From the NCBI GenBank assembly GCA_903919125.1, contig CAIXGS010000005.1:1-64000 (forward strand): a stretch of 64,000 bases of DNA, read 5' to 3'. How positions within the stretch are numbered: the first letter of the stretch is position 1; the number at the start of each line of letters is the position of its first letter. Both the position numbers and the translations under genes were made by a program. The notes under the pieces were generated by a model. That model searched no databases and was not told the DNA's origin. It saw only the letters and a program-made list of their open reading frames with translations. Source of the stretch: an uncultured Spartobacteria bacterium (GTDB taxonomy: Bacteria > Verrucomicrobiota > Verrucomicrobiia > Chthoniobacterales > Chthoniobacteraceae). Of the stretch, positions 54,300 through 55,947 are shown one piece after another.

Positions 54300-54406
54300 C
54301 GGCGGTCGGGGTGGGGGGTGCCTTGAATAAACTCGGCTCTAATTATTGCGCGCTAAGCACAAGGGCGGAAAGTAAAACGCCGCATTCTGCTTAAAAAGCT
54401 GAGCGA

Positions 54407-55627
54407 CTAAGTCAACGTTTTTTGCAGCAGATTCGCGAGTGATGCAGTCTTGAATGGTTTCAAGAGTAACCCCGAAAAGCCGAGCGCGTACACAGCTTCC
54501 GGAGTTAGCTTTCCAGCATGTCCTGTGGTGAGGATGACGCGTTGTTGAGGTTTTGTATTCCAAAGTGATCTGGCGAGTTCCATGCCGTTCATACGGGGCA
54601 TGCTCAGGTCCGTGATGACGACGTCAAAACGCTCCGTGCGATGCTTTGCAAGAGCAACCTCAGGCGTCGGCGCGAAGGTCGCCTGGTAGCCCAATGAGGA
54701 CAGGCTTTCCGAGATCACAAGTCCTAAAACTTCTTCGTCATCCACGAACAAGATCCGCTCGCCTTTTCCTTGTGGCACTGCCTGGTTCTCCGTCTTTTGG
54801 ACGCTAGGCGGCACAGACGCACGCAGCGTTCCCAATGTTTCGGAGATGGCCTCCGTTAGATCGAAAGGCTCGTGAGGCCGTTCCTGTTGCCTGCTGAAAT
54901 CCAAGATGGATCCGACAAGGTGTGATGCGCGTCTAGTGCATTTCAATATGGAGTCAAACCGTTTAGTGCAACTCGACGGAGCGTCCGCAAGGTGGATGCC
55001 GCTTTCCGCAAACCCAATAATTCCGGTGAGGATGTTCTTAAAATCGTCAGCGATGGCGGCTGTCACGGTTCCCACGGATTCTAGGCGTCCAGCATGATTT
55101 AGCTTCGCTTCAAGTCTTCGCCGCAGTTGGCCTTCTTGATTTGCCTCATTCCTCGTCTCGGCTGCGTCCTCCATCCGCCGATTACAAGTAGACAGTAAAT
55201 AAGAATGGCACTCCTGATAGTACTCCGCCTCCAGCAAGTGAAACTCGGAACCAGTAAGCGGCAACGACATACGTGCCTGATTCATAATCGACAATAAGGT
55301 CGGCCTTAACTGATCGAGATCGGAATCAAGAGAAAGCAGTTCAGAAGCGCCACAGCGCAGGGCATGCGCTCGATCGCAGGGGCGGTTTAGAATTTTGCTC
55401 AATAAAACCACGCAGGCAGCATCCAGTTCGGGATGCGTTCGCAACTCACGGCAAAGCACAAACGGTTCCGCTCCGCATGTGTCGCAGTCTATGAGAATCA
55501 CATCCGGACGAATAGTGAGCGAAAACGCCACCACCGCCTCATTGGCGTGAACCAAGTAGCGCGACTTAAGTATTTTAGCTAAAGAGCTGTTAGACTTTGC
55601 AACGAGGAGCGTGGTGAATTCATTCAT
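54407..55627 (-). CDS. Degenerate hybrid sensor protein: receiver-like, HisKA-like without His or ATPase, receiver
   Basis: The 406-residue protein has a receiver-like domain (1-115) without the acidic pair at its N-terminus, a coiled/HisKA-like segment (135-275), and an intact receiver (288-406) with FVDDEE, phospho-acceptor Asp340 and Lys390. In the HisKA part the usual AHDFNN is ADDFKN: the phosphorylated histidine is Asp194. After about residue 275 the HATPase domain that should follow is absent, and the chain goes directly to the receiver linker (QGKGERILFVDDEE). It therefore cannot act as a kinase. The ATG at 55627 is chosen over TTG 55630. Confidence 0.8.
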   Translation of the reverse strand: MNEFTTLLVAKSNSSLAKILKSRYLVHANEAVVAFSLTIRPDVILIDCDTCGAEPFVLCRELRTHPELDAACVVLLSKILNRPCDRAHALRCGASELLSLDSDLDQLRPTLLSIMNQARMSLPLTGSEFHLLEAEYYQECHSYLLSTCNRRMEDAAETRNEANQEGQLRRRLEAKLNHAGRLESVGTVTAAIADDFKNILTGIIGFAESGIHLADAPSSCTKRFDSILKCTRRASHLVGSILDFSRQQERPHEPFDLTEAISETLGTLRASVPPSVQKTENQAVPQGKGERILFVDDEEVLGLVISESLSSLGYQATFAPTPEVALAKHRTERFDVVITDLSMPRMNGMELARSLWNTKPQQRVILTTGHAGKLTPEAVYALGFSGLLLKPFKTASLANLLQKTLT

Positions 55628-55947
55628 CAATGGCTCATCGTTTTCCGGAGCGAAATCGGTTTGATCCGATGTCTGATTCCTGAGTCGTTAGCAAGTGGCG
55701 AGTTTTAGTTAAAATGTGGCGCTAAAATATTCACCTCCAATTATTTCCTGCCGCATCTTTGCGTGAAAGATCTGCGAAACTGGACTAGGTGGATTGCTTT
55801 GGGAAAATTAGTGCAATCAGAAAAAATAGATTTTTTTTCAGATTGATATTGTCACCAGCCGTCTTGCTGACATTCTATCAAACCCCGCACCGCGGATTCG
55901 CAGGAGATCCAGACATAAAGTTTGGTTCGGTTGCACTGCTCCCTTAT
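55628..55947 (+). other. Region before rplA; no gene, strong AT-rich inverted repeat
   Basis: This divergent gap holds no recognised gene. At 55814-55845 the two arms CAATCAGAAAAAA and TTTTTTCAGATTG pair except for one A-A mismatch. The structure could terminate a plus-strand transcript or affect the promoter of the ribosomal operon. The promoter itself was not clearly found. The expected rplK, nusG and secE are absent. Confidence 0.5.

Follow-up and report, generated by a model that had tools for sequence, protein, structure and literature searches.

The gene at positions 54407..55627 (minus strand) of the window, the whole stretch of 64,000 nucleotides analysed here, encodes a kinase-less pseudo-hybrid protein of 406 residues. 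Compared with the orthologue at the same locus in another genome of the genus, it has lost both its ATPase domain and its phospho-acceptor histidine, while the C-terminal receiver is intact. What is left is presumably a dimeric receiver protein, which may serve a new function or may be in the course of being lost. The explanation best fitting the observations is that the protein has been retained as a dimeric, output-less receiver after the loss of the kinase, and we put the chance of this at close to even; a recently made, decaying allele is nearly as likely.

Domain organization of the protein

The open reading frame starts with an ATG at 55627 and ends with a stop codon at 54407-54409, comprising 406 codons with no internal stops. 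Its closest orthologue, a protein of 550 residues, is found in a genome of the same genus (G003) and begins at the ATG taken as the start in the original prediction, and an alternative TTG start 3 bases upstream was rejected on this ground. The chain consists of a degenerate N-terminal receiver, a coiled coil, the HisKA helices and an intact C-terminal receiver.

The N-terminal domain (residues 1-118; 55274..55627, minus strand), which had been overlooked, is the second Response_reg stretch reported by Pfam. In the sequence and its alignment, Ala-Lys takes the place of the acidic pair and the lysine is absent. Receiver homology combined with the loss of key catalytic residues identifies the domain as a pseudo-receiver, the fold itself being predicted with low pLDDT. 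The AlphaFold2 model, a monomer computed from a 29-sequence alignment, represents this domain poorly, and that alignment contained no homologues of it. In the orthologues of the same genus, the N-terminal domain is likewise a pseudo-receiver without the acidic pair.

The HisKA (DHp) helical hairpin spans residues ~186-250 (54878..55072, minus strand), with a Pfam match at residues 186-249 (E 1.8e-9). In the model, residues 126-213 form a long helix and residues 219-249 run back as a second one, together making up the DHp hairpin, which like the C-terminal receiver is predicted with good confidence; the junction that follows (251-280) is disordered. The C-terminal receiver (residues 292-406; 54410..54754, minus strand) is defined by Pfam (Response_reg, residues 292-401, E 3e-24), by the alignment and by a model block with pLDDT of 84-97; the best PDB matches of the model are CheY-like receivers. 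Residues D296, D297, D340 and K390 supply the acidic pair, the acceptor Asp and the Lys of a hybrid-kinase receiver, and the receiver is thus intact, as had been claimed. A Pfam scan of the 406-residue protein for HATPase_c, the hybrid-kinase domain with the N, G1 and G2 motifs, gave no match. A receiver and a HisKA domain in one protein with no HATPase domain place it among the ATPase-less HisKA-REC proteins.

Loss of the ATPase domain and of the histidine

The G003 orthologue lies in the same gene order, with rplL, rplJ and rplA on one side and an M60-like peptidase and fabF on the other (the gene names are our own reading of the sequences), and has the same start and the same domain order. 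The two proteins are 67% identical over residues 1-276 and 88% identical over the receiver. In contrast to the protein described here, the orthologue keeps His194, Asn197 and a complete HATPase domain (HATPase_c 293-412, E 1.9e-18). This is the comparison with close homologues that the original prediction had proposed.

In the DNA alignment, the difference is a single clean gap: 432 nt, or 144 codons carrying the HATPase domain, are absent at residue ~281/282 (junction 54780..54790, minus strand), so that G003 codons ~282-425 are gone with the frame preserved. Both breakpoints fall in linkers just outside the HATPase domain. Codon 194 at the phospho-acceptor position (55046..55048, minus strand) has changed from CAC in G003 to GAC, and the histidine expected of a hybrid kinase is replaced by Asp (H194D). 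A second change in the H box, which had escaped notice, is N197K (55037..55039, minus strand; AAC to AAG). Both sites are invariant in the other four sequences of the genus, with His and Asn in G003, G002, G005 and G007. The H+4 residue N198, of the phosphatase type, is retained (D194-D195-F-K-N198). The description of the protein as kinase-dead and receiver-retaining, with Asp194 and with the ATPase domain removed in frame, is therefore borne out.

The more distant orthologues G002, G005 and G007 all have the histidine. The whole ATPase domain is present in G002 and G005; the short frame of G007 stops at a contig end inside the ATPase domain and was rejected as an example of the same deletion. 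Elsewhere in the family, every intact homologue that was read has the histidine as well as the ATPase domain (in one, L181, the histidine stands in the box AHDFNN), and both losses are thus specific to this lineage. A search of 213 genomes in the order revealed no other copy of the gene carrying this deletion. Three apparently contiguous HisKA-REC candidates (G021, G020 and G006) proved on reading to be ordinary kinases or other receiver proteins, and a contig scan for conspecific sequences matched only distant kinases and receivers. Orthology by gene order together with the loss of the histidine and the ATPase domain makes the protein a pseudo-histidine kinase, i.e. a histidine kinase homologue without at least one catalytic function.

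The genome is in 87 contigs and the closest relatives are intact, as would be the case if the real gene were intact and the gap had been created by the assembly or by a mixture of strains. The original prediction would fail if the relatives are intact and the gap is such an error; the first half of this holds, but nothing points to the second. An artefact is very improbable, since the frame is preserved and a mis-join would not give H194D and N197K. The breakpoints carry no repeat that would point to a repeat-mediated collapse of the assembly, which was rejected: within 40 nt they have no word longer than 6 nt in common, and that one is out of register. A short repeat might still be masked by the divergence from G003. 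Nor is there an orphan ATPase fragment, as a search for the displaced segment across the genome returned at best other kinases, with 46% identity or less; translocation of the domain to another place was rejected on the same ground.

A retained receiver or a decaying allele

By combining these observations, it is possible to propose how the protein arose and what it might do. The ancestor would have been a soluble hybrid histidine kinase consisting of a pseudo-receiver, HisKA, HATPase and a receiver. One in-frame deletion of 432 nt removed the whole ATPase domain, and the phospho-acceptor histidine was also lost in this lineage. With both gone, two-component chemistry would exclude autophosphorylation and phosphate transfer via the histidine. 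The DHp helices might still dimerise, the hairpin having been modelled as a monomer only. The receiver, which has every residue needed for phosphorylation in trans, could accept phosphate from one of about ten other histidine kinases (our own reading of 17 HATPase matches in the genome), from an HPt protein, of which the genome has two, or from small phosphodonors. The phosphorylated protein would be a dimeric receiver with no output, possibly acting as a decoy, a phosphate sink or a docking partner.

A retained role is supported by the gene order shared with an intact orthologue, the histidine and ATPase domain kept in homologues of the family, the single clean gap with no displaced ATPase segment, the open frame, the preserved receiver residues, the model of the hairpin and the receiver, the other kinases and the HPt proteins of the genome, the conserved ATPase-less proteins of another genus described below and the low pairwise dN/dS against G003 in HisKA (0.08) and the receiver (0.065). 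The pseudo-receiver and the linker give 0.19 and 0.28. Against it count the occurrence of this state in one genome only among those searched and about twice as much amino-acid change as in the sister, the receiver included. Polarised amino-acid changes number 36 on this branch and 16 on the G003 branch (p=0.008). The flanking controls give 19:17 for the M60-like peptidase and 5:7 for FabF, together 24:24, and the difference between 36:16 and these controls is only suggestive (Fisher p=0.07). Maximum likelihood branch lengths, this branch versus G003, point the same way as the counts, with 0.32 versus 0.14 for residues 1-276 and 0.14 versus 0.005 for the receiver. A branch-wise codon model does not separate the omegas of the branches, owing to saturation of the synonymous sites relative to the outgroups.

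The gene and its upstream region (window positions 54386-55904) form an island of low identity to G003, with 63-79% DNA identity, whereas most flanking blocks have 81-95%; dS is 1.16 in the gene versus 0.36-0.82 in the neighbouring genes. Such an island is compatible with fast evolution as well as with a diverged allele having replaced the original one.

Alternatively, the locus could hold an allele of a dispensable hybrid kinase that has recently lost its function and is drifting towards loss; its H box would now be able to vary, and its open frame would be left over from the functional gene. The orthologue is missing from many genomes of the genus, and the gene is thus dispensable. The deleted form is confined to one genome, the H box has changed twice and the locus is a divergence island. 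Amino-acid change is faster on this branch even in the receiver, as expected if constraint has weakened. Such decay has to be reconciled with 406 codons free of stops and frameshifts, with intact catalytic residues in the receiver and with the low pairwise dN/dS of HisKA and the receiver, which by our estimate permits only about 1/10 to 1/5 of the branch as unconstrained time. The low dN/dS makes neutral drift along the greater part of the branch less likely, yet it is compatible with a recent loss; if the deletion is recent, the low value mostly reflects the time before the deletion. Likewise, the clean deletion at the domain boundaries had been read as a sign of selection for a new role, but in a single genome it is also the expected look of one recent event. 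A new role under selection is at most a possibility: the low dN/dS speaks against long neutral decay, but this branch evolves faster than its sister, in the receiver as well.

An improbable alternative is that the protein works as a DHp-type phosphatase, its HisKA domain dephosphorylating its own or another receiver with no ATPase. In HisKA proteins, the T or N of the motif H-E/D-x-x-T/N, which corresponds to N198, is needed for phosphatase activity alone (PMC3510030); since N198 is kept, residual phosphatase activity is conceivable from the sequence. The conserved histidine is not essential for this activity but contributes to the reaction (PMC12632262), and N197K and H194D alter the active surface.

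Retention as a dimeric receiver might also be viewed on a larger scale. The family would repeatedly convert hybrid kinases into ATPase-less HisKA-REC proteins kept as dimeric receivers, and the gene described here would be a freshly made case in which even the histidine is lost, the intact syntenic sister showing the state before. This broader proposal is doubtful, at perhaps one chance in four.

Comparison with known proteins

A search for the same architecture in relatives, suggested in the original prediction, yielded no second deleted copy of this gene but did reveal an ATPase-less HisKA-REC set in another genus of the family (g7). Its members are conserved TM-PAS-HisKA-REC proteins of ~430-490 residues with the histidine kept and no HATPase domain (loci L203-L206 and L209-L212 in G028, G033, G032, G031, G024, G029, G025 and G026). 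Eight genomes were read by sequence, with Pfam domains checked for two, and a ninth by match span only; no kinase gene is apparent beside two of the proteins (L233 and L234). As in the present protein, the receiver directly follows HisKA with no HATPase; in contrast to it, they have a predicted membrane segment, a PAS domain and the histidine, are conserved across the genus and are of separate origin. By analogy, an ATPase-less HisKA-REC architecture can be kept. A further genome (G027; L199/L207, G027:C59:20959-21630) encodes a separate REC-PAS-HisKA-REC protein, also with the histidine and no HATPase.

In the pseudo-histidine kinase DivL, Tyr occupies the phospho-acceptor site and a catalytic-like domain is retained. 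The present protein resembles pseudo-histidine kinases of the DivL type (PMC5361649, PMC4211667) in having HisKA without the phospho-acceptor histidine, a feature with which DivL is integrated in signalling; unlike here, the role of DivL is known by experiment. The histidine is missing in 0.9% of HisKA domains (PMC12632262).

Archaeal REC-HisKA proteins with no HATPase domain have been described and predicted to dimerise, none having been studied (PMC5847659). The AF_1472-type REC-PAS/GAF-HisKA proteins (PMC5847659) and the 'incomplete HK' class of P2CS (PMC2716373) share with the present protein a receiver and HisKA with no HATPase, and are predicted to dimerise. The AF_1472 type differs in being archaeal and in having PAS/GAF domains, and the related HisKA-only proteins of the same study keep the histidine. 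Osp and FixT, receiver-like kinase inhibitors (PMC9430884), are likewise output-less receiver folds that may work by kinase binding; they differ in being single-domain, unphosphorylated proteins with no HisKA and no acidic pair, whereas the C-terminal receiver residues are intact here.

ATPase-less HisKA-REC proteins are thus not unique, given the g7 set and the archaeal examples, and the kind is known but largely uncharacterised. Such proteins and pseudo-histidine kinases are known from surveys, their origin and role being largely untested. What stands out here is an unusually clean before-and-after pair at one locus, the intact G003 gene and the deleted gene, with which the effects of kinase loss on dimerisation, receiver phosphorylation and selection become measurable.
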